Assembly: GCF_949987535.1 (NCBI RefSeq)
Contig: NC_080067.1
Location: forward strand, 68,014,128-68,078,127
DNA from: Balaenoptera acutorostrata
Lineage: Eukaryota; Chordata; Mammalia; Artiodactyla; Balaenopteridae
Length of the DNA: 64,000 nucleotides
Reading direction: 5' to 3'
A model generated the notes under the pieces. It did no database searches, was not told the DNA's origin, and saw only the letters and a list, made by a program, of their open reading frames with translations. A program made the translations under genes and the position numbers. Positions within the stretch are counted from its first letter, which is position 1, and each line of letters begins with the position of its first letter. Of the stretch, positions 300-61,720 are shown in pieces.

Positions 300-1236
300 T
301 TAGACCTGCCCACTTCTCTCCATCCCCACAGCCACCACCCTAGTCCGAGCCGCCATCTTCCTCTGCCTGACCACTGCACAGCTTCCTCTCTGATCTCCCT
401 GTTTCCACCCTTTCCTCCTCCCATTCTTCTTCCCCAGAGAAGCCATGTTAATCTGATAAAGTAATGGCTCTGCTTCAAACCCTAGCTCTCAGGGAGGCCT
501 TTTTTTTTAAATTAAATTTTTATTGGAGTATAGTTGATTTAGAATGATGTGTTAGTTTCTGCTGTACAGCAAAGTGAATCTGTTATACATATACACATAT
601 CCACTCTTTTTAAGATTCTTTTCCTATGTAGGCAATTACAGAGTATTGAGTAGAGTTCCCTATGCTATACAGTAGGTCCTTATTATCTATTTCATATATA
701 GTAGTGTGCATATGTCAATCCCAACCTTTCACCCCCGCCCAGGAAGGCCTTATGAATCTAAAAAAAAATTCCTCTCGTCCTCCACACCGATTTCCAAGCT
801 TCCTTTTGGCCCCCCTCAGTCTCCAACTCTACACTTAAGTTATTCTGAACTTCTTTCGGCTTCCTCCAATAAATATGTTTCTCTTGCCCCTGGGACTTCA
901 CACAAAGAGTGTTTGCTCTGCCTGAAACTGCCCCCGCCAAACACACCTCCTTCACCTACTACTCATCTTTCACATTTCAGCTTGAATGTCATTTCCTCAG
1001 GGCCAGACATAGCCGTCCCTCTCACATGTGCTCCAGCAGCTCTGTCCTTCCTCCATAATAATAAGTTACACTCTGCTGTGATAACTTCATGCCTGCTTCC
1101 ATCGCTAAACTAGCTCCTAGAGAACACAAACCTCTGTCTTATCCATTGCTGTATCGCCAGAAGTTGCTAGAGTCTTTGGCTCAAAGAATGATGAAATACA
1201 CAGCTGAATGAATGAATGAATGAATGAATAAATAAA
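300..1236 (+). repeat. LINE-2 3' end, interrupted by an L1 fragment
   Basis: Both flanks of the L1 insertion read like the pyrimidine-rich 3' part of L2, and the right part ends in a (GAAT)n tail at about 1205-1236, the usual L2 3' terminus. The copy is strongly diverged. Short open frames here on either strand are not supported as genes. Confidence 0.65.
501..735 (-). repeat. LINE-1 3'-end fragment
   Basis: A T-run at about 501-510 (poly-A on the minus strand) is followed by 'attggagtatagttgattta' and 'ctatacagtaggtcct', text typical of the 3' end of cetartiodactyl/laurasiatherian L1. It interrupts the older L2, so it is the younger of the two. Confidence 0.7.
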
Positions 1237-1739
1237 CAAGCGGGAAGGCCCTCGTTGCAGGATGTGTCGCGGAGGACGCCCACCTGGTATTGCCTAAGGC
1301 GAGTTTAGTTAGTGTCAGGACGTGCCTGGAAACACAGCCACATGGCGGCGGCCCCGGGCACGTACAGACCGCACGGGGGCGCCCCCGGCTCGTTGTACGT
1401 GGATGACACCTCGCCGGACTCAGGTTCGGTTACTAATCGCCAATGGGCGACAGGAGGCGGGCTTCTCCCTCAGACGGACAGTATCGCTCCGCCCAATCAG
1501 ATTCATCTTTTCTTTGGCCCCGCCCACCCCAGGCCTCAGAGAATGAGGGTGGGCGTGATGGAGCCGCCGCCAACTGAACTCCGGCAGAGTGCTCTCGAGG
1601 CCGAACCAGCGCGCCTGGCGGTCTGTGAGTGGGCGGAGGGTGGCTAGGGGCGGGGCCTCAGAGATGACAGGCAGGAGGCCGGCCCCACCCCTCTCGTCCA
1701 GAGCGGCCTCGCCAGCGCTGGGGACAGCAGAAGTGAGTA

Positions 1740-2178
1740 CGTGAGCGGCGCAGCAAGAACCCAGCTCGGACCCCGGACGGCGCGCGCACCCGGAGTCCCC
1801 GATCCGAGTCGGGCCCGCAGCAGACCTCTGGATTACTGTGCACACCGAACTACCACCACTTGCGCACTCCCTCCCCGGGCCGCCTCCCCGAGTCCACTGG
1901 TTCCGAGCTCTCCAAGCGCCCCGGATCCTCCAGGACCGGTCCGTCCAGATTCCCCTGGGACCGACCTGCCCACATCCCTCAGCATCGCCCGGCTCAGGGC
2001 GCCGCCTCGGTCCCGGAGCCGCCTGCCTGGATTGCACCCTCTCCTTGCCTGGATCTCCTGGGACCACCGTGCGCGAGCCTTCTTCGGAGCCCGCCGAGCG
2101 GACCCTCCCGCGGGTGCCCGCAGCCCCGCCGGCGCGGCCCGGCGCGGCTCGGCTCGGCTCCCGGAGCCCGCCCCGGCC
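1740..2178 (+). other. EPHB3: EPHB3 5' UTR (start approximate)
   Basis: GC-rich leader immediately before the EPHB3 start codon. I found no ATG between 1740 and 2178, so the annotated start is the first AUG of the message. Its context is strong (G at -3 and G at +4). The left boundary is inferred, not seen. Confidence 0.55.
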
Positions 2179-2293
2179 ATGGCCCGAGCCCGCCCGCCGC
2201 CGCCGCCGCCGCCGCCGCCGGGGCTCCTGCCGCTGCTCTCTCCGCTGCTGCTGCTGCCCCTGCTGCTGCCGTCCGGCTGCCGGGCGCTGGAAG
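2179..2293 (+). CDS. EPHB3: EPHB3 coding exon 1: signal peptide
   Basis: Codes residues 1-38 plus one base. MARAR is followed by nine prolines encoded by a near-pure CCG run, then a leucine-rich hydrophobic core and SGCRALE near the cleavage site. The donor is aag|gtgagc. Start context is strong and it is the first AUG of the leader. Confidence 0.96.
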
Positions 2294-5200
2294 GTGAGCG
2301 GCGTCGGGGGGCGCGTCCAAGGGTTAAGGTGTCCGGGGTTGCCCGAGCGTGGGCCGGGAAGGGTCCGCGGTGTTGGTCCGATGCGGGCTGGGCGCACTTC
2401 GGAGGAGGCTCGGTCACCCGCGCCCTTTCCGGGGGCCGGAGGATGGGGTGGGGAGGACGCCCTCGGCGCTGCCTCGGAGGCTCCAGCTACCTCTGTGGCA
2501 GGCAGTCCGCCGGTTGCGGGATCGCGGGCAGCTCGACTCGGGAGAGCGTTCCCCGAAAGTCATGGCCCGGCCGTGAGCTTCTGAGGGAGTACCCCGCACT
2601 CAGGGCAGAGGAGCGGGGCCCTGGGCACCTCCTGGAGGCAAGGAAGTGTGGGCGACCCACCAGGCAAGGCGGGGGCTCTGAGGCTGATGCGGGGCTGTGG
2701 CGGGTGGAGGCGAAGCGGGACTCCCCAGGTTGAGGGGCGGCGTTGGTTCGGAACCCCTTGGAGTGATCTGTGAGAGTGTGAGTGCGTGCACCCCGCTTTG
2801 TCAGGGAATGGCTGCGGGGATGGAGAGGCGGGGGCCTGTTATTGTTTACGGTTTACGAGCGCCAACTACTCACGAGGTGCTGTGTGCACCGGCGTTGCAC
2901 GCGGCTCTGCGGCACCCCCTCTGCCTTCTAGCAGGACACCCCGAGTGCTGGGGTCTCCACCGAACCCCTGAGGTTCCGGGGCTTGTCCTGGGTAGTGCCG
3001 GAGCCGGTGCCTTACGCATTAGCCGGTGGGAAGAGGCCGGGCTTCTCTCGATGGGTTCTGTGAAACCTGCGGAGACTGCTGCTCAGGAGGTTGCTCCAAC
3101 TTCCAAACGACTGTGCTTGGATGGACAGCCCAAGTGTTTTTGGCCCCCGTGGGAGAGTTCACACACATCCACTTGACAAGCCTGAGGGGACAGAGGCACT
3201 GACACTGGTTAAACAATAGACAGACAGATGCAGACGCCAACGCACAGTTCCCAAAATTTTTGGAGCCATTAAATGAGGGAAGAAAAACCTTCCTTAGGTG
3301 GAGGGAAGGACACCACAGAAATTTGGGGGAAATTGGGATTATAGGCAGTACTTATATTTGGTATCTTTAACAAATCCAGTCACTTTCTTAGTTTAAAAAC
3401 AAACACATGAATTCCGTGTGACTTGGTTTGTTCATATGTTCACAATCGGTAAACTTAAAGGTTGGAAGGAAAAAAGAACAGAGTTCTGAGAGAAAGGCAT
3501 CCTCTGGTGCTTTCTCATTTTCTCCAGGGGAAAAAAAACATTCTTCTGAATGTCTTTTATCTCTGAGCCCATTGGTGCTGACAGACTGATTCACACGGGT
3601 GGACGCATGCAAATCCAGACAGACACACCGAGGTCGCGCCCACGCTTGTGCACGCTCACCCACATGTGTGTGATAGGATCACAGGCGTGAGAAACCGGTG
3701 TGGGGATTTGTTGTTGATTGCCTCAAGGGTGTGAGCCAGGGAGCCTGCTGGAGTTCCCAGGTCTGTGTCTTAGCCCAGGAGAGGCGACACAGGCACACGC
3801 ACTTACAGGACTGTGTGTGCCAGGCCCCAGAGCCCTTGTTGTGGGGTGTGGTGGGTGCTGATGCTGAGAGTGGAGTGGGGGGCGTGGTTTGGGTCAGGTG
3901 AGCAAGGGGTACCTGAAAAGGCTCACCCCTTCCTTCCTCCCTCCCTTCTTCCTCTTTCCCTTCCTTTCTTCCTCCTTTTCACCCCTCACAATCTGCTGGT
4001 CCCTCTAGACCCTAGCTGGCAGGCCCTAGCTGGGAGCTGACATCCAGGCCTCCAGGCCCAGGACCCGAGGGGCTGACCAGGAGGCAGAGGCGTGATGAGC
4101 TATAGCAGCCCAGGAAAGAGAGGACAATGGGGCCACTGCCCCTACTCTGTCCCCTCCTCCCTCAGGCTGTGAAGTGGGATCTGGGGCTATTCCCTGGCTG
4201 GGTGGGTGGTGGCTGGGAGGCCAGGCCAGTGTGGGGTGCCCCTAGGAAGGTAGCAGTGCCTCCCAAGTGTGACTTTCACGAGTTCCTTCACTTTCACCAT
4301 ATATGAGAACTTAGGGTCTTCCGTTGGCGTGACAATGAAAGGAAAAAGAGAGATGACGCCTCAGGGCACTGACCCCAGCCCAGTGGTCTACCTAACCACA
4401 CTCCTGCTTTCCCTCCCTGTGAGATGGGATAGTAGTTGAACCCACCTCCTAGGGCTGTTATGAAGATTGAATCCTTAATGTGTGTCAAGTGCTTAGCACA
4501 GCCATTGTTATTCAAGGATTAACTGTTATTATTATTACCCTAGGGTCTGCTCCTTGGGGAGCACCAGAAAGTGAAACTGGTGTGTACCCTTGCCCTGCTG
4601 GAGGGAGCTTAGAGGACGCAATAATGGGAGGAGGAAAAGTTGGTCTGGGGAGGAAGTTGTCCCCCCAACTCCTCCATCTCTCTCCAGCTTTGGGAGGGAG
4701 AGAATGGGATAGGAAGAGAGCTGGGTCAGGAGACAGCTGTCCTTGACTCCTGCCTGTACCCCATCCCTATTCTGGAGCTCGAATGGCGGGATGGGTGGAC
4801 CTGGGTGTCCTAGGCTGTGGCCAGAGGACAGGGCTAGGTGGGACGTCCAGCACTGAAGCTCCCTTCAGCCCCCCAAGCTTTATGGGTGGAGGATTTCACC
4901 CCCTTGCTCCATCCAGTCTTCCCTTTGGTTTTGCCAGGATTTGGTTTGCCCTTGGCCTTAGGGAGCCTTTAGGCTCTTGGCCTCTGAGGTCGTTATATTT
5001 AGGCCCAGGGTCCTTGAGCTGTGGGTGCTGTCCCTCATGGTCTCATTGATTAGATGCTGTCTAGCACCTGGTTGTTCTTCCTCCCTATACACTTGGGGTT
5101 CATGAAGATTCTGCATCCAAATATCTCATCAGTTTTCCATGAGGATGGAGCTAGGGTCCTTGCTTGTCCTCCTTGGTTGAAGAAACACCTCTCTTCTTGC

Positions 5201-22480: not shown

Positions 22481-22859
22481 CACTTGAAAGGTTCAGAGGA
22501 TAAATAACCAGAACCAGGGAGAGGGTTAGGAAAACAGCTTCTGGAAATAAATGTCAAAGGAGAAAGGGGGTGGAGTGGGCGTGGGGCTCAGAGGCCCCTT
22601 AGACGCAGAAACACACAGGGAGGTGGGGTGGGAGGTGTGTGCAGTCACTCTCCCAGTGTCAGAAGGAGGGAAACTTGGGCAGTAAACCTTGGTGGGGCAT
22701 GGAACAGGTTTCCAAAGAACCTGCCCATCCGGGTCTGGCTGGACCCGGGAGGGAGTGTGGACAAAGCCTCACAGATCTCGCACATCTTTCCAGGCAGGGC
22801 AGAGCTCCGTAGGGGACTCCTAAGCGGGGGCGGTAGCTAGGGGGAGGCGATGCTGCAGG

Positions 22860-23420
22860 TGTGGAGGCCGAGGCAGCTATTGAATTCAGGTGCAGGGGAC
22901 CGGGCCCCGGGAGGCAGGCCAGGGCGGTGGGAATGGAGTTGGTCCAAGGCGGAGGTTGAGGGTTTCCGCCGGCCGGCTCAAAGCCTGGCGGGGAGAGGGG
23001 CAGGGGCGCGGCTGTCGCGCGGTGCCGGCTCCGGGGCCCGCTCTGGGGCTTCTCCCGCCGCGCCGCTCCTTAGTATTCCCCCCACGGAGCCCAGCAGCGC
23101 TGCAGAGGCTGCCCGGGGGAGGGGCGGCCCCGAGGGGGTGGGGTGGGGGAGAGGGGAGGCGGGAGGCGCGGGCAGGACCCGGGGATCGGGGATCGGGTGG
23201 GACGGAGCTCCTCCAGCAAGCCCTCCTTTCTTCCCTGGTTGGGGACTCTGCCGAGGGCGGGGGCTCGAGGGGACGATGCGGGGCCCCGAGGCCGCCTTGG
23301 GCCCAGGCGCCGCCGCTGTCAACGGCGCGAGGTGTGGCGGGCGGCCAGGGGAGGGGACGCGGTGCTGAGTGGCGTCCTGCACACCCTGCGCCGCATTCCC
23401 GGGCTGAGGGCTCAGATAAA
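22860..23420. promoter_or_regulatory. CpG-rich island downstream of EPHB3
   Basis: GC-rich block with many CpGs about 1 kb past the EPHB3 3' end, for example 'ggcgcggctgtcgcgcggtg'. Long open frames in it on both strands are expected from GC richness and resemble no protein I know. It could be a promoter of an unannotated transcript or an enhancer-type island. Confidence 0.45.
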
Positions 23421-23529
23421 GGGGAGGGGGTGTTCCAAGCTCCTGCTCAAGTGTCCACTTCCTACTCCCGAAGCTGCGGGATGGGGGAGGGTCCGTGGCC
23501 CGCGTCTCCTGGAGTGACCCCCTAACCTA

Positions 23530-24288
23530 TTCCTTCACTCTAATCATTTTAGCGGGAGTCTGGGCTGGGGGCTCCGCACGAAGAGGTAAGGCATCGCCGC
23601 CTACTGGGTAGGCAGAAGGAGCGGGACAGTTGGGCGCTGAGCGCCGGGGAGCTAGGGGTGGGGGGTTGGGAGCCGCACAATGAAGGGACACTTGGTGTGT
23701 GCACTCCAGGCTGAAGATTTCAAGGGGCGTCTGGAACTCAGCAATCCGGGGGGCATAAGGTATTCTGTTGGATGTGCCCCGTGCAGCACAGGACACATAC
23801 CTCCCTTCACGTGTGATCAGGTCTGTACTCCCCTGCATGCACACTATGTCCCCAGGTCACCTCCCTTACCCAGGTTCTCACGTCCTGTTACAAGATCCTC
23901 CCTGGCCCCATCTCCCAACCCACACACCATAAGAGCTTCCCACGACTGAAAAGAGGTGGGGGAAGGGATGCTGAGAAGGAAGGACAAAAGCCATCCCCCT
24001 TCCTGGAAGGCTCCTCCCCCCCAGTGCATTCCCACCTGGGCCGCCTAACCCTGCTAACCTGTGTCTGTCTTACTGGGGGCTGGGATGAGTCTTCAGACCC
24101 AGGAGCAGTGGGGTAAAGAGGGATGGGGCGTGGTTAGGGCATAGGAAGAATGAGGGTACTCAGGAGGGGTCTGGCTTTCCGGCGGGCAGGTGAGGAATGA
24201 GAGGTAGTGAGGTCTTCATCTGGTTAGTCTTTGTTAATTAATTACACATTCCTGGGGGCAGAAAATTAGATCTCCCAAGTTAGTGCTT
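23530..24288. other. Unique intergenic sequence
   Basis: No gene or clear repeat seen. Contains a short homeodomain-like 'ttaattaattac' at about 24234-24245. Confidence 0.6.
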
Positions 24289-29339: not shown

Positions 29340-29960
29340 AACAGATAAATGTATTGATGGATGGAGTAAAATATGTATGTATGTATGTATGTATATATGA
29401 ACAAGTGGATGAATGATGGATTAATGAATGAATGAGTAGATGAAAAAGTAAATCACAGGATGGATAGAGGGATAGATGGATAAATAAGTGAATGTCTGTA
29501 TGAATAAATAGTTGAATAAATGGATGACGGGTAGGTGAATGGATAGATGAATGGATATATGGATGGATGAATAGTAGATGAATGAAAGAATAGGCAAGTT
29601 GGTGTATGGATGAGAGAATGCATGGATGGAAGGATAGATGGATGAATATGAGAAGAGATAGAAGAATAGGTGAATAGATAGTTGGATAGAAGGATAGATG
29701 GAGGGATGGAAAGATGAATGGATACACAAGCATAGATGAGAAGATTGTTAGGCAGATGAACGGGTGAATGGATGGATGAGTAGATGAATGGGTGGATGGA
29801 AAGATGGTTGAATGGTAGGATGAATGGATAAGACAATGGGTATATGGATGAAAGGATACATGAATGGACAGATAATTAGATGATTAGATGACTGGATGAT
29901 TGGATGAATGGATGGTTGGATGGATGAGTGGATGTTTAGATGGTTGGCTGGATAAAGGAA
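29340..29960. repeat. Degenerate (GATG/GAAT)n tetranucleotide array
   Basis: About 620 bp of GGAT, GATG and GAAT units with point changes and a (GTAT)n patch at 29371-29394. Open frames rich in Ile, His, Ser and Pro on the minus strand come from the period and are not genes. It directly follows MIR/L2-type repeats. Confidence 0.93.
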
Positions 29961-41270: not shown

Positions 41271-41584
41271 CTCTTCTGAGCAAGGAGCCCCACCTCTGGG
41301 GCAGGGGCAACAGGAGCATTCTTTCAGCTCAGATTCAACCCAGGCACACGCTTGCCCGGCCCCATCCTGCACATTTAGCCTGTAGCTGTTGCCACACTGG
41401 CCGCACCTCCGACACCGATACCAGGCTGTTCCCCCACCCTACCCCACCTGCCAGGGCCACAGGTGGGTGGCTCTGTTCTTGCGGGACTGCAGGAGCCTGG
41501 GAGGACAGAGGAAGAGGATGGGAGAGAAGAGGGAAGGGTAGAGGGGCTGGAGGAGAGTAGTGAGGGCTAAGGGCAGGGCAGGGC

Positions 41585-41755
41585 CTTGAACCCTGTGTAA
41601 TTATTTCCAGCCCTGCCGCTTTCTAGCGGTGTGTGTCCTTGGGCAAGTGGCTTTAACGTCTCAGAAGCTTCTTTCCTTATTTATGAACTAATAATAATAA
41701 CAATTTTTGGATTGCTGTGAAGATTAAATGAAGAATATATGTCAAGTGTCCGGCA
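41585..41755 (+). repeat. MIR fragment
   Basis: 'ccagccctgccgctttctag', 'tccttgggcaagtggcttta', 'aataataataacaat' and 'gaagattaaatgaagaat' in MIR order. Confidence 0.7.
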
Positions 41756-41769
41756 TTCTGGAGTTTTGT

Positions 41770-42560
41770 TCTCCGGAGGCGGGAGGAACACGCATCCTTC
41801 CCTCAGTCCCCGAGGAGGGGGAAGTTCCACGAAGGCACCGTGGGGACGCTGGGGCGACTCCCCCGCGGGCCTGCGCACCTCACGCAGCAGCCGGAGCGCC
41901 CTCCCCCGGGGCTGGAAGCCTGGCTTCCTAGGCCGGGGAGCCCCGCCCACGGCGCAGGGGGGAGGTTGCGGCCCGAGCCAGCCGCCCGCCCCCACCCGCA
42001 CCGCCTCTGCCTCCGCGCTGGCGTCTTTGATCTGCAACCTTCAGGGGGATTAAGAGCCTGAGAGACCCTCTCCCCGGAGTCCCCCGCTCCCCGCCGCCCT
42101 CCCTCCGGGCTGACCTCCCAGTCGGCGGCCCGGGCTGGGGGCTGGCTCCTCCGCCGGTGGTCCCCGCTCCTGCCCGCCGCGCCTCCGGGCAGGCCACTGG
42201 GATTACAGGGGCAGCGGCCGCGGCGGGCAGCTTCCGGGAGTCCCGGGGGCTGGGGCCCTGGGGGGGGGGGCGGGACGAGGGGAGTGGGCTGGGGGCGGGG
42301 TGGGTGCGGGCCCGGGCATCTCCCGGCCATTTTGGCCGGGGAATCTGTGTAAAGTGTTTAAAAAGAAAAACTCTCCGGAGGAGGACGTAACCTTTTCTTA
42401 ACATCTGGGGCTCAATTAGCTAATGACAGCAAAGCCTTCTCCGGTGTCGCTGACCCTTGGGCAGCAGCCCCGCTCCCCCACCCCCGGTATTTATACAGCT
42501 GCGGCCCCTCGCTGGGACGCGGGGCAGGGGGCTTGGCTGGGTTATCTCGGCGGAGATCCG
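41770..42560. promoter_or_regulatory. CpG-rich island with homeodomain and YY1-like motifs
   Basis: GC-rich block about 20 kb downstream of EPHB3 with no recognisable coding gene. It contains a perfect 8-bp inverted repeat around a YY1-like GCCATTTTGG (42322-42340), a perfect palindrome ATTAGCTAAT with two TAAT cores (42415-42424), and a TATTTATA at about 42488-42495. This mix of island and motif cluster suits an enhancer or a promoter of a non-coding RNA. Function is inferred. Confidence 0.4.
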
Positions 42561-42589
42561 CCGCCCACTCCAAAAAAGAGAGAAAAGGC

Positions 42590-43110
42590 TTAGCACAGGG
42601 TCCCAGCCACCGGCCCTGCAGCCCTCCTCGTCGTCGCTCTCTCCCCTCCCTCTCCCCGCTCTTGGCGCTGCCTCCGCCTTCCTCCCCGTGGCCTTCTCGG
42701 CTCTCCCTCTCGTCCCCTCACACCTTCTTCTCTCTTTCCCTTCTCCTCCTGCCCTCTTCTCTTTTCTTGTTGCCCCTCCCTTTCTCCTCTTTCTCTGCTT
42801 TCTCCCCTTTGTCTCCACTCTCTGCTTTGCCTTTTCTGCCCATCTTTCTCACTCCTCCACTCTCTCCCCCTCTGTTCTGTCTCTTCCCTTTCGTGTCCAC
42901 CATTCCCTTGCCTGGTTGTCTGTCTCTCTTTTCTCCCCTTTCTCTGTCTTTTCTCTCTCTCCCCAGCGGCTTCCCCTCTCTTTCTAACTCTGAATAGCTC
43001 CCTTGTTCCCCTCTGGGTTCCTGTCTCTCCCTCTTATTCTAGTGCTTCCTCCCCACCTTTGTCTGTCCCTGTCTCAATCTCTGAATGCCTCTCTGTCTTT
43101 CCTCCCAGAG
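42590..43110. repeat. Polypyrimidine (CT-rich) tract
   Basis: About 500 bp strongly biased to C and T on the + strand with no fixed period. It gives long spurious open frames on both strands. Confidence 0.85.
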
Positions 43111-43760: not shown

Positions 43761-44029
43761 TAAGTGCAAGGCGAAGTTCTTTCCGTTAGGACATTTGCTT
43801 TTTATTTTCCTGGAGAAAATCTTTCAGTCTGTTTTTCCAGGAGAGCGCCATTATCCAGAATTCTGCCTCTACCTCTTCCTTTCCAAATATACTTGGAACT
43901 CTCGCACCCCTTGGAGACTCCTCTATATGAGTGAAGACTTAAGATTCAATTCACTGAAAAGCTCAGGTGGATAACGTTTGCAAACAATGGGGGTGGGCGG
44001 AGTTCCCAGAGTTCCTGAAGCCCTTGGGT

Positions 44030-44220
44030 TGATGCCGCGTAGGACCCTTGGCTTACTGCGTCCTGGGCGCTGCGGCGGGTGCTTCGCATACAGGATCATG
44101 AATCCCCACGAGAACCAACCGAGAAGGGTACTGTTACCCCTTTTTACATCCGGGGAAACGGAGAGGCAGTTGTCCAAGTGCCACTGCTATCTCGGAGCAA
44201 AAACTAGACTGGACCCCAGG
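44030..44220 (-). repeat. MIR fragment
   Basis: 'gcgggtgcttcgcatacagg', 'ttacccctttttacatccgg', 'gaaacggagaggcagttgtc' in reversed MIR order, GC-shifted because of the neighbouring island. Confidence 0.5.
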
Positions 44221-45035
44221 GGTCTCGCCTCTAGAGCCCGGGGTGGGGTGAGGTCTCCCCACCGGTAAGAGGTATAAGAGGGAGGGGTGCGGGGACACTT
44301 TGGGCAGCCCGAGCGGGGCAGAGGAGGGGCACAGCTGGCACTCGTTCTGGGAGGCATTGGTAGGTGGGCTCCACCCTCCGACCCGGAGCCGGCCGACCCT
44401 GTGTTGCAGGCGGTGGGGTGGGGGGACGCAGGGAGGGGTGCTGAGCCCTGGCCGCCGCCGCTGCGCCCGCGCCGCCCCCAGGACTGGCTCCCAGCGCGCC
44501 GGGCTCGCTGCCGGCACCGGATGGAGAGTCCTGAGAAGGCTTAATTTGCAGGAAGACATTCTCATCAGATCTTGTCTCCGGCAGCGGACCGCTGCTGCCG
44601 GGGGTCGGACTGGGCTCCTCCCACCACCCCTCCCCCGGGCCCTGGCCGGGCGCGAAACAGAGGTGGTGGCAGCAGTAACCGGAGCCCCGGCGCCGGGGCG
44701 GCCGCGAGGGGCCGAGGTCTTTGAGAGCTTGGCTGCCTCTTGCCAAGGTCAATCAAACCCTCCCACGCTCGGGAGGCGCGCTCTGGGTGAGCTCGGCGGC
44801 GAGGGGCGAAGGGCTAGAGGTGGGGGGCCCGAGCGGGCCGGCCAGGGTAGGGCAGGGGCCCGGCCTCTGCGGATGCTTCCCGCCCCCTTTCCGGGCAGGT
44901 GTTCGGGGTTCCCGGGCCCGGGGGAGGATGGCGTGAGGGGTGCGCGGGCCAGAGGCTGGGACCCACGCAGCTGGGTCTGACCCACCCTGGCGGAAATGGA
45001 GACTAATTAGGGACGTTTTAATTCGAATATGCACC
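44220..45035. promoter_or_regulatory. CpG-rich island, function unknown
   Basis: Second downstream CpG-rich block, with many GCC/CCG runs (44450-44530). Its right edge carries 'actaattaggg' and 'aattcgaatatgcacctgg', which include homeodomain- and E-box-like sites. Open frames on both strands are not convincing genes. Confidence 0.4.
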
Positions 45036-45039
45036 TGGC

Positions 45040-46010
45040 TGAGCTTTTTTTTTTTTAGGGCGGAGAAAGGGTGTAGAGTAGAAGGGAAGAAGTTCCTGAG
45101 AGAGGAAAGTTCCGGAAGCGCTTGATTCCTTGATAAAGGCTACAGGGCTCTACTCACCCGCTGTGTGGCCTTGGGGAAGTTACTTGACGATGTTGTTGGG
45201 CTTCACTTTTCTACTCTGAAAAAGGGGGAACACGGGTCAAATTTCTTCCCAAGCTGGATCACTCTGTCAGCAACAGTTTGGAAGTCCAGCCCTCAGGTTG
45301 CTGTCGGAGGATAGAGAGGGGACGGGTTGCAGGAGGTGTGAGGTGTGTGTCAGAGGGCAGAATCCCGGGCGTTGCAGAGCATCTGGAGTCGCAGAAACCA
45401 CGAGCACGTTTCCAAGAGCCTAACTGTCCCCACTGTTGATCAGAAGTCAAAGTGAGGGACCCGGGGAAGGAGACTGAGCGAAGGTCCCCGGATTGACGGC
45501 AGGAGGGTCAGAAGGAGGCGACTCCGTGGTAAAAGAAGATGGGAGATGGGGTGGGAAGCAGGGAGGAGAAGTGGGTGTTTTATGGTGGGACCCGCTTGAG
45601 CTTAACTGTAAGGTTGGAGTGGAGGGGAGGGATGGGTTGAAGATGGCAAGGAGAGAAAGGGGAGTTGACTGATGGGGTCATGTCCTGAAGCAGGCCAAAG
45701 GGTGGGAGCTAGGGCACAGGTGGGAAGGAACAGAAGGAGACGCATCCGGGTGGTAGGTGGGGGGAGGAGAAGAGGATGTCTTGACCTGGAGGGAGCACTC
45801 TTCATCGCCTTATTCAACTCAGCTCAGTGGTGGAGGAGGCCTCAGGGTGGTCCTCGAGTGAGGAGTTAAGAGTGGACCTGGGAAGAATTCACCATGGAGG
45901 CCAAATCAGGAGGAGGGTGGGGAGGATGGAAGCGCTGATGAGCAGGGATGCTGCTGAGGTTGGATTACAGGAATTTGAAAGCAAAGTAAAAGAAATCTTT
46001 GAGGAGACAG
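45040..46010. other. Intergenic, little recognised
   Basis: A MIR-like fragment near 45130-45240; otherwise unique, purine-rich at 45455-45640. Confidence 0.5.
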
Positions 46011-50814: not shown

Positions 50815-51565
50815 TCTGTGACCACCATGACCATCAGCACTGTCACTGTTCCCATTCTTACCACTGTCACTGTTTGCATTTCTACCACCACTGTTACCAC
50901 CGTCTCCATCACCACCACTGCTTCCATCTCCATCATTACCACTGTCTCCATTTCCACCACTATCATCTTCTTCATCTCCACCACATCCACCACCTCTATC
51001 TTTACCACCAAAGCCACCACCATCTCCACACCCACCACTATCAACATCTCCATCAATCTCATCACCATCATTTCCACCTCAACCATGACCTCCATCACCA
51101 CCTCCACTAGTATCACTACCTTTATCACCAGTATCATCTCCACCACCATCTATGCCCCACCACTTCTCTCTCCACCATTATCACCGTCCATCTCCACCAC
51201 AACCACCACCTCCGTCTTCATCACCATAACCATAACCACCTCCACACTCGCCCCTAGCAACATCTCCATCACTCCTCACCATCACCTCCACTATAACCAC
51301 CAACTCCACCTCCACCACTCTTAGCACTTCCATCATCGTCTCAACCATGACCTCCACTTCCACCACCATCCCTACATTCACAGCCACCACATCTACCACA
51401 ACCATCACTTCCATCTCCACTACCATCATCACCTCTAGTTCCTTCACCATTACCACCATCACCTCCACTAATATCGCTACCTTTCTCACTAGTACCATCT
51501 CCACTACCATCACCATCCCCACCACCACTACCACTACCCCTCTCATCTCCTTTAACACTACTGTT
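50815..51565. repeat. Degenerate (CAC/ATC)n trinucleotide array
   Basis: About 750 bp of CCA, ACC, ATC and TCC triplets with scattered changes. The triplet period keeps several frames open on both strands (a Thr/Ser/Ile-rich frame on +, a Val/Met/Glu-rich frame on -), which explains the long open frames without a gene. Larger units recur inside it (see findings). Confidence 0.93.
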
Positions 51566-59699: not shown

Positions 59700-61720
59700 T
59701 GGGTGAGAACACTTGACACTGTGAAGATGTCAGTTCTGCCTGAAGAATTCTCTAAATTCAACATAATGCCAATCAAAATCACAACAGGATGTGCCTGTGT
59801 GTGAAATTTAACAAGCCAATTCTAAAGATAATCTGGAAGAATAACTGTGTCGGAATAGCCAAGAAATATTTGAAGAAGAACAATGGGGGAGGACTTGCCC
59901 TATCAGATTACAAAACACCATCAAGCTGTACTAATTAAAATGGTGGTGTGCTGGCACGGGACAAGACAAATGAATGGATCAAGGTCACAGAATAGGGAGT
60001 TTAAAAGGGGTTCTTGTATGGCGAGGAATTCAGGATGTGATAAAGTAGCATTTAGAAACAGCATGGGGACAACCGGCAGTCGAGTGAGCGGGCCGCATCG
60101 GGAGCGCAGGGTGGCGGGAACTCGATGACGAACCCGATCTTCCTGGTGCTCATTTCTCCGCTCAGTGACGGCCGCGGACGGGGCACGCGGGACCCGGGGA
60201 CCTGGGACCCGGCAGCATTTTTCTCCAACGTCCCTGGACGAGGTGCAACTGCCGGGGAGGGGACGGATTCCTCACTCCCCATGCCCGGCCGGTTCCGGCG
60301 CCGGAATGCGATGCCACCGAAGGTTGACAGCAGGCCGGCCTCAGCCGGCGCGAGTACGTCGAGAACTAGAATTTCCTTTTGTTCTTCTTGTTGTTGTTGT
60401 TTCCCCCTCCTCTTTCCCCTCGCTGCCGCTGCAATGAAGGAACATCCACCAATGAGACGAATAAAAATACGGTAATATTAAAAAAAAAAAAAAAAAAGAA
60501 ACAGCATGGAAAGGATGAACTCCTCAAAAAATAGTGTAGAGACAATTGGCTATCCTTGTGAAAAAACATAAAGTTGATTCCTGCTTCACACCTTTCACAA
60601 AATACATTCCAGGTGGATTAGAGAGCTAAGTGTAAAAAAAAAAACAAAGCTATAAAACTATTAAAGAAAATATAGGAGAATTTGTTTATAACCTTGGGGG
60701 AGGAAAGGCTTTCTTTAGCAAGATATAAAACGCAGAAACCATAAAGGAAAAGATTGCTAAATTTGATTACGTCCAAATCTAAAACTGCCATATGACAAAA
60801 GACACCATAAATATTGTTAAAAGACAAGTGACAGCCTGGAAGAAGGTATCTGCAACATATGCAAACGGAAAGGATTAGTATTCAGGATATATAATGAATT
60901 CCTACAAATAGTAAGTGAAAGATAAACCACTCAAAAGAAAAATCGAGTGATAATTCGGAACAAACAGTTCACCTCCGAGGAACTGCAGATGGTTGATAAC
61001 AATGACGACAGCTCAGCCTTGCTAGTCAGCAAAGAAATGCAAGTCATACAACACTGAGCTAACATTTTTCACCCGTCAGATTTGCAACATCTTAAAAAGA
61101 TTCGTAATACCTACTGTTGGCAGGAATTTAAGGGCATGAACACCCTTTTCACTGTTGGTAAGAATGGAGTTTGTCACGGTGTTCGTAGAACAGGATCCTG
61201 CAGTGTCTGTGGAAAGTGAGGGGCCCAGACCCTCCACCACAGTGAGTCCACATCTCTGCCTGGAGAAATGCTCCAAGTGCACAAAGAGGCCTGGCCACAG
61301 GGAGCCTTGGTGGCAGTGGCAGAAATGGGAACAATCAGACACAACCCAAAGGGTCATTAATAGAGAAAAGGCTAAATACATTTCTGAATATCCACATTAA
61401 TAACAGTTTTCTGAGGCCCAAACAAATGAGGTAGACCTCTGCAGCCTGAAGTGAAAAGGTCTGGATACCAGAGAGAAGCAAGTCACAGGACGTTCTGGCT
61501 TTATTTATGTAAACATGGATGCAGGCTTTGAAATTATGTGCATGAGGAAGAATATTCTGGAAGGGTACCTGTCAAATTGACAATCCCTGGGGAGGGGAGT
61601 GGGATTGTGTAGGAGCCAAGGTGGGCTTTATCTGAATGAACTATTTAAATTTTTTTTACAATGAGTATGTATGCATGTATTACTTATATAATAACAATAA
61701 CACATTTAAAATAACTAGAA
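59700..61720 (+). repeat. Old LINE-1: end of ORF2 and 3' UTR, interrupted
   Basis: Text such as 'caatcaaaatcacaacagga', 'gatgaactcctcaaaa', 'tattcaggatatataatgaa' and 'aagaaatgcaagtcataca' follows the end of L1 ORF2. Frames are broken by many changes. The element is split by the retrocopy at 60067-60496. Confidence 0.8.
60067..60496 (+). pseudogene. Processed retrocopy of an unidentified transcript
   Basis: A 430-bp CpG-dense block unlike the AT-rich L1 around it. It has the marks of L1-driven retrotransposition: 13-bp target duplication agaaacagcatgg at 60054-60066 and 60497-60509, AATAAA at 60460-60465, and a pure A tail from about 60480. An uninterrupted frame from ATG at 60125 to TAA at 60475 (116 codons, starting MTNPIFLVLISPLSD) uses up most of the copy, but I recognise no protein, and a GC-rich 5' leader could give such a frame by chance. 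The parent could be a short coding or non-coding RNA, or a 5' exon ended by early polyadenylation. The clean tail and retained CpGs point to a young insertion. Confidence 0.8.

Follow-up and report, generated by a model that had tools for sequence, protein, structure and literature searches.

The window, by which we mean the whole 64,000-nucleotide stretch analysed here (on contig C5 of its own 2.77-Gb genome), holds a short CpG-rich block inside an old L1 element, and the question raised by this locus is which RNA the block was copied from. A first-pass annotation had read it as a recent L1-mediated retrocopy of an mRNA or lncRNA and had expected an intron-containing parent gene. The block was followed up by comparison with its relatives in the same genome, and the source proposed below lies in the spacer of the ribosomal DNA.

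Anatomy and coding content of the insert

All features are given on the + strand of the window. The insert is bounded by the perfect target-site duplication of 13 bp that the first-pass annotation had reported (AGAAACAGCATGG), which lies at 60054-60066 and 60497-60509. The 5' copy is followed by a retrocopy body of 413 bases (60067-60479), which starts with GGACAACCGGCAG and ends with GGTAATATT, the same ends as those of its relatives elsewhere in the genome. A poly-A tail of 18 A follows at 60480-60497, its final A being common to the tail and to the 3' duplication. The AATAAA polyadenylation signal noticed earlier is present at 60460-60465, separated from the tail by 14 bases rather than 15. 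When the duplication was compared with the 3' flanks of other copies, the best score was 8. The L1 endonuclease prefers targets such as TTTT/AA and variants of it; the insertion target GCATTT/AGA (bottom strand TTCT/AA) was judged by eye to be one base off this consensus. The block is an L1-type retrocopy inserted in an old L1, and tail, signal and target duplication bear out the L1-mediated origin first proposed for it.

The contrast in base composition that had drawn attention to the block also stands. Measured on 60068-60477, the insert has a GC content of 0.61 and 40 CpG, with a CpG observed/expected ratio of 1.04 against 0.14 and 0.21 in the approximately 2 kb flanking it on each side. 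Larger CpG-rich stretches occur elsewhere in the window (1151-3251, 22701-23701, 41551-43001 and 43901-45251; observed/expected 0.62-0.80) and are perhaps promoter or gene islands. The target L1 was recognized from a 60-aa frame at 59756-59938 (+ strand), an ORF2 remnant for which a PDB search with E up to 10 gave six weak matches; the top match was named 'RNA-directed DNA polymerase' and four of the best five were named LINE-1 ORF2 protein (E 0.04-0.08). Nothing at E 0.001 and no Pfam family were found for this frame. The flanks beyond it read as old L1. Two further stretches of the window, 29534-29933 and 50883-51527, are diverged internal repeats that are 65-72% alike and belong to 2-kb bins in which the GC skew is strong (+0.40 and -0.385); TRF reported no array at a score of 120. 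SINEs of the CHR type point to a whale or a related even-toed ungulate as the origin of the window.

The block contains an ATG frame of 116 codons (60125-60475 together with its stop, + strand), which is real and reaches nearly to the tail, as first described. Translation of this frame as a protein-coding retrogene would be favoured by its length and by one match among public proteins at E 1.2e-10. That protein proved to be the frame running through another copy of the family, L005, and its flank (identical over 134/134 residues); it tells us no more than that an ENA data set, from the same or a closely related species, contains the L005 insertion as well. The frame itself is no more than chance, because 121 of 2000 dinucleotide shuffles gave one of equal length, and it is not conserved: the longest ATG frames of nine other aligned copies span 21-87 aa and lie in differing places. 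No Pfam family was found in four frames of the block. We therefore regard the frame as meaningless and a coding origin as having a negligible chance of being right. Nor does anything point to a structured functional RNA, since a single-sequence fold showed no excess stability relative to shuffles (z 0.27) and the covariation term of a consensus fold of 10 copies was nil (0.27 kcal/mol).

Dispersed relatives and their common ends

BLAST of the block against the window gave only short, weak matches besides itself, and a scan of the window with Rfam found no family. Searched against its own genome, the block matched at least 11 loci, the window included, and the L005 copy used as a query added at least 5 further loci. 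In all, at least 16 loci (the window copy and at least 15 relatives) were collected, of which 14 are dispersed, including the window copy, and 2 lie in rDNA. The first-pass annotation had named the lack of any similar sequence elsewhere in the genome as a finding that would speak against its reading; this is not what was found, because 15 relatives exist. A scan of viral contigs for the 3' end pattern returned 0 matches.

End-to-end alignment was possible for 12 of the 14 dispersed copies. A SINE-interrupted copy (L054, which is also without the first bases of the common start), a copy with its 5' part missing (L059) and the partial rDNA copy L008 were left out of the alignments and of the end counts. 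Copy ends were set from BLAST limits and by eye. All 12 aligned copies begin within 3 bases of one nucleotide, (G)GACAAC, and all 12 end at GGTAATATT or a decayed form of it, mostly followed by A-rich sequence. They differ from one another by indels and by a variable GGGACC-type stretch, and no sign of an intron was seen in any of them. AATAAA is found near the end in 9 of the 12 (not in L017, L055 or L062). Six copies (L001, L005, L016, L018, L055 and L062) start with one G more than the template CCT|GACAAC of the rDNA copy L003, and this extra 5' G is possibly a trace of the cap.

Target duplications were detected by script in 10 of the 12 aligned copies, with a score of at least 11 in nine and 7 bp in L061; none was detected in L004, L062 or the rDNA copy L003. 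In a control, 5' flanks were compared with the 3' flanks of other copies, and scores of up to 11 were obtained for L004, L006 and L055, and of 9 for L002. The duplications of L002 and L055 (real scores of 11 and 13) are less certain because these control scores reach 9 and 11, and those of L017 and L061 are also less certain than the duplications of L001, L005, L006, L007, L016 and L018. Gap-free identity to the window copy is 71-88% in nine relatives, and no direct parent was found among the relatives, the best of which is 88% identical when gaps are ignored.

An rDNA counterpart and the probable source of the RNA

A decayed interstitial rDNA array was recognized at 99.4654-99.508 Mb of contig C14 (stretches L037, L029, L031, L030 and L038). 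It comprises one unit with 18S, 5.8S and 28S genes (L037:5388-7192, L037:8698-8848 and L037:9909 to L029:2765, respectively, by Rfam) and a second with the 28S 3' part (L030:5710-6829, also by Rfam) and matching spacer, both in the same orientation. A homologue of the window block lies within this remnant at C14:99473696-99474123. In the first unit its start is at L029:4124 and its end at 3697, on the opposite strand from the rRNA and 0.93-1.36 kb past the 28S end, so that it is antisense and points back at the 28S gene. Neither of the two rDNA loci has an A tail, and L008 runs on into the 3' part of 28S rRNA. Segments of one unit can be aligned collinearly with segments of the other at 72-92%, also across the 3' edge of the block.

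Upstream of the block, on its own strand, the first T of a TATAAA motif is located at L029:4156, 32 bp from the block start; the motif occurs only twice on both strands of the 10-kb L029 stretch. The TATA box of an RNA polymerase II (Pol II) promoter is typically found about 25-32 bp upstream of the start. The second rDNA unit is without the part that holds this box, and when the 322 bp upstream of the start were searched against the genome, no other TATA-containing site was found among the 40 of 1244 candidates that were scored.

A pattern scan placed a Sal-type box between the 28S gene and the block in both units, at L029:3543-3558 in the first and L030:7361-7376 in the second, the pattern having been written after L003 and L008 had been read. 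A plain scan for GGTCGACCAG, which we take to be the Sal box consensus, with one mismatch allowed gave extra minus-strand hits (two in L037 and one in L031), and two overlapping hits next to the L030 box; L038 gave none. Sal-type boxes are the kind of site at which transcription by RNA polymerase I (Pol I) ends, and are named as terminator elements in the part of the literature consulted (PMC6281188).

The position and orientation of the block in this remnant, its own TATA box and poly-A signal, and the terminator-like box point to a spacer RNA directed towards 28S as the source. Rather than an mRNA, the parent was thus most likely an antisense transcript that Pol II made from the rDNA spacer and that was polyadenylated and unspliced; the retrocopy body is most likely its full-length copy. 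The intron-containing parent gene expected at first was not borne out. Of the two kinds of parent transcript then considered, the noncoding one fits the results, the block looking noncoding, and the mRNA, with its unsupported frame, does not.

The fixed ends, A tails and target duplications at 16 loci could also be explained by a low-copy SINE-like family whose dispersed copies are transcribed and spawn more, the rDNA having merely received one. Such a family is hard to reconcile with the rDNA copy L003, which has neither A tail nor duplication, with the alignment of the second rDNA unit across its 3' edge, and with a TATA box that lies outside the copied part. Moreover, only 14 dispersed copies were found (a lower bound), and a search of the + strand of the window copy with two simple patterns for the internal A and B boxes of RNA polymerase III (Pol III) promoters matched nothing; the tRNA-like hits that Rfam gave close to L053 and L061 fall outside the copies. 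We consider a SINE-like family very unlikely.

A tree was calculated from the 12 retrocopies and L003. The rDNA-remnant copy L003 groups within one clade with the window copy, L002 and L004 (support 100/99), and L007 splits off immediately before this clade (support 100/96), a pattern that a single evolving source would be expected to leave. Forks deeper in the tree are weak, good support being found for 2 of 10 inner branches. The end branch of the window copy, at 0.055, is the shortest in the tree. At 36 family CpG sites, defined as CG in at least 3 rows with the window copy among them, it keeps CG at 32, with one TG/CA and three other changes, whereas the other copies keep CG at 3-24. Its private substitutions number 10 of 409 sites, one of them a CpG decay, against 16-22 in L002-L004. 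On these counts the window copy would be the youngest of those found, unless it has escaped methylation. The recent age first assigned to it agrees with its being the least CpG-decayed member of its family. The insert had also been said to bring a small CpG island of its own; the CpG density is confirmed, and it derives from a CpG-rich parent.

The tree also bears on whether the C14 remnant was itself the source, as a single-copy Pol II gene distinct from the working rDNA. The remnant is the sole locus found with a rightly placed TATA box, and by gap-free identity (88%) it is the nearest relative of the window copy. L003, however, differs at 16 of 401 sites, by substitution, from a base common to the window copy, L002, L004 and L007, and L007 branches before L003 with support. 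L003 is evidently not the parent of the window copy, because its private changes are not shared, and it looks like a sister of the source rather than the source itself. An origin from the remnant is accordingly rated as quite unlikely. The working rDNA array is judged to be absent from the assembly, since L044, a CpG-rich, young-looking copy of the 3' ETS, found nothing above 83% in its own genome beyond 28S-tail pieces of at most 42 bases, itself apart.

The block is therefore read, with a probability of roughly 85%, as a full-length L1-made retrocopy of an unspliced, polyadenylated noncoding RNA of about 413 nt from an rDNA-spacer gene that would be antisense to 28S and convergent with Pol I. 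Pol II would start about 32 bp downstream of the TATA box and proceed towards the Pol I terminator. The RNA would receive a cap and, past AATAAA, would be cleaved and polyadenylated with about 140 bp still to go to the terminator (Sal box). L1 proteins would capture this RNA in trans and insert copies of it elsewhere in the genome. These copies would leave the promoter behind and be dead on arrival, the rDNA remaining the evolving master; the working rDNA of the species would still carry and transcribe the unit.

Neighbouring transcripts, known systems and meaning

Further copies were found with the spacer between 28S and the block as a query against the same genome. L044 (1241-1829), L047 and L049 are copies of the 3' ETS, L044 including the 28S end as well. 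In all three the copied sequence breaks off at positions 3530-3534 of the spacer, with 9-13 bp left to the Sal box, and A runs are present there or nearby. In mouse, the 3' end of the Pol I transcript likewise lies short of the Sal box, and by this analogy the ends of L044, L047 and L049 are likely to be the 3' ends of Pol I transcripts. L044 looks young and is very rich in CpG. Dispersed 28S fragments were also found, and 29 of the 41 matches listed (40 of 53 candidates scored) end at query positions 863-866, the 28S 3' end.

Sense-strand copies were found as well, two of them (L046, at 1450-1632, and L050) starting at or near the Sal box and a third (L048) about 30-45 bp past it. All three extend to spacer positions 3685-3690, where A-rich tails follow, and all three have ATTAAA upstream; target duplications are clear in L046 and L050. 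Because only about 6-11 bp separate these sense 3' ends from the end of the antisense unit at 3697, poly-A RNAs of the two strands of the spacer would meet tail to tail. In a fourth sense copy (L063, 347-514) the sequence begins some 49 bp upstream of the antisense start and extends away from that start. The sense copies are few and may be truncated at their 5' ends.

As a class, the copies resemble processed pseudogenes and L1 retrocopies of noncoding RNAs, with an A tail, a target duplication, an RNA copied from end to end and the promoter left behind. The difference lies in the parent, which would be an antisense rDNA-spacer RNA in place of an mRNA, snRNA, Y RNA or mature rRNA. L1 retrocopies of rRNA are described in the part of PMC13174262 consulted. 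Antisense RNAs of mammalian rDNA that are made by Pol II are known, the polyadenylated PAPAS among them, and in the sections of PMC11505599 consulted PAPAS are 12-16 kb long, have random starts and no common promoter, and reach over the pre-rRNA and its promoter. The RNA proposed here is likewise antisense to rRNA, polyadenylated and from rDNA; unlike PAPAS as described there, it would have a TATA box and lie outside the rRNA genes, and its copies share one start and one end about 0.4 kb apart, the end falling before the terminator-like box. Polyadenylated noncoding transcripts have also been mapped in the human rDNA spacer from human and ape RNA-seq, and are similar in kind and location; the parts of that report consulted describe no unit of the present kind beside the terminator and no retrocopies (PMC6281188).

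A SINE derived from mature 28S rRNA and retroposed by LINEs was reportedly described by Longo et al. in 2015. It too is rDNA-derived and LINE-retroposed, and the family found here differs in coming from antisense spacer, in having no Pol III motif that was found and in its few copies. The portions of the literature covered (PMC11505599, PMC8395900, PMC6281188 and PMC13174262, with subscription papers mostly outside this scope) mention neither a discrete antisense poly-A unit next to the Pol I terminator nor retrocopies of such a unit. We regard the block as an ordinary kind of retrocopy with an unusual parent.

The antisense RNA would most likely be a by-product, or else have a mild antisense or insulating effect next to the Pol I terminator; a promoter that arose by accident and gives off a by-product would be explanation enough. 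The same ends are seen in copies of quite different age, which suggests that the promoter and the poly-A site were kept while the spacer changed. It is tentatively proposed, as a possibility that we hold to be the less probable one, that in this mammalian lineage the spacer carries a dedicated TATA-driven Pol II gene facing the Pol I gene across the terminator, long kept (perhaps for tens of millions of years) while the spacer turned over and, given the closely abutting poly-A sites of the two strands, maybe serving as a read-through barrier or an antisense regulator of termination, with the retrocopies as its fossil record.

Discrete Pol II RNAs inside rDNA are hard to study because rDNA arrays are poorly assembled and reads map badly to them. 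Dispersed retrocopies reveal the start, poly-A site, orientation and history of such a spacer transcript, because L1 would have repeatedly sampled the RNA, ends included, into ordinary chromosomes. The same approach may be used in any mammalian genome for reading the transcription of the rDNA spacer.
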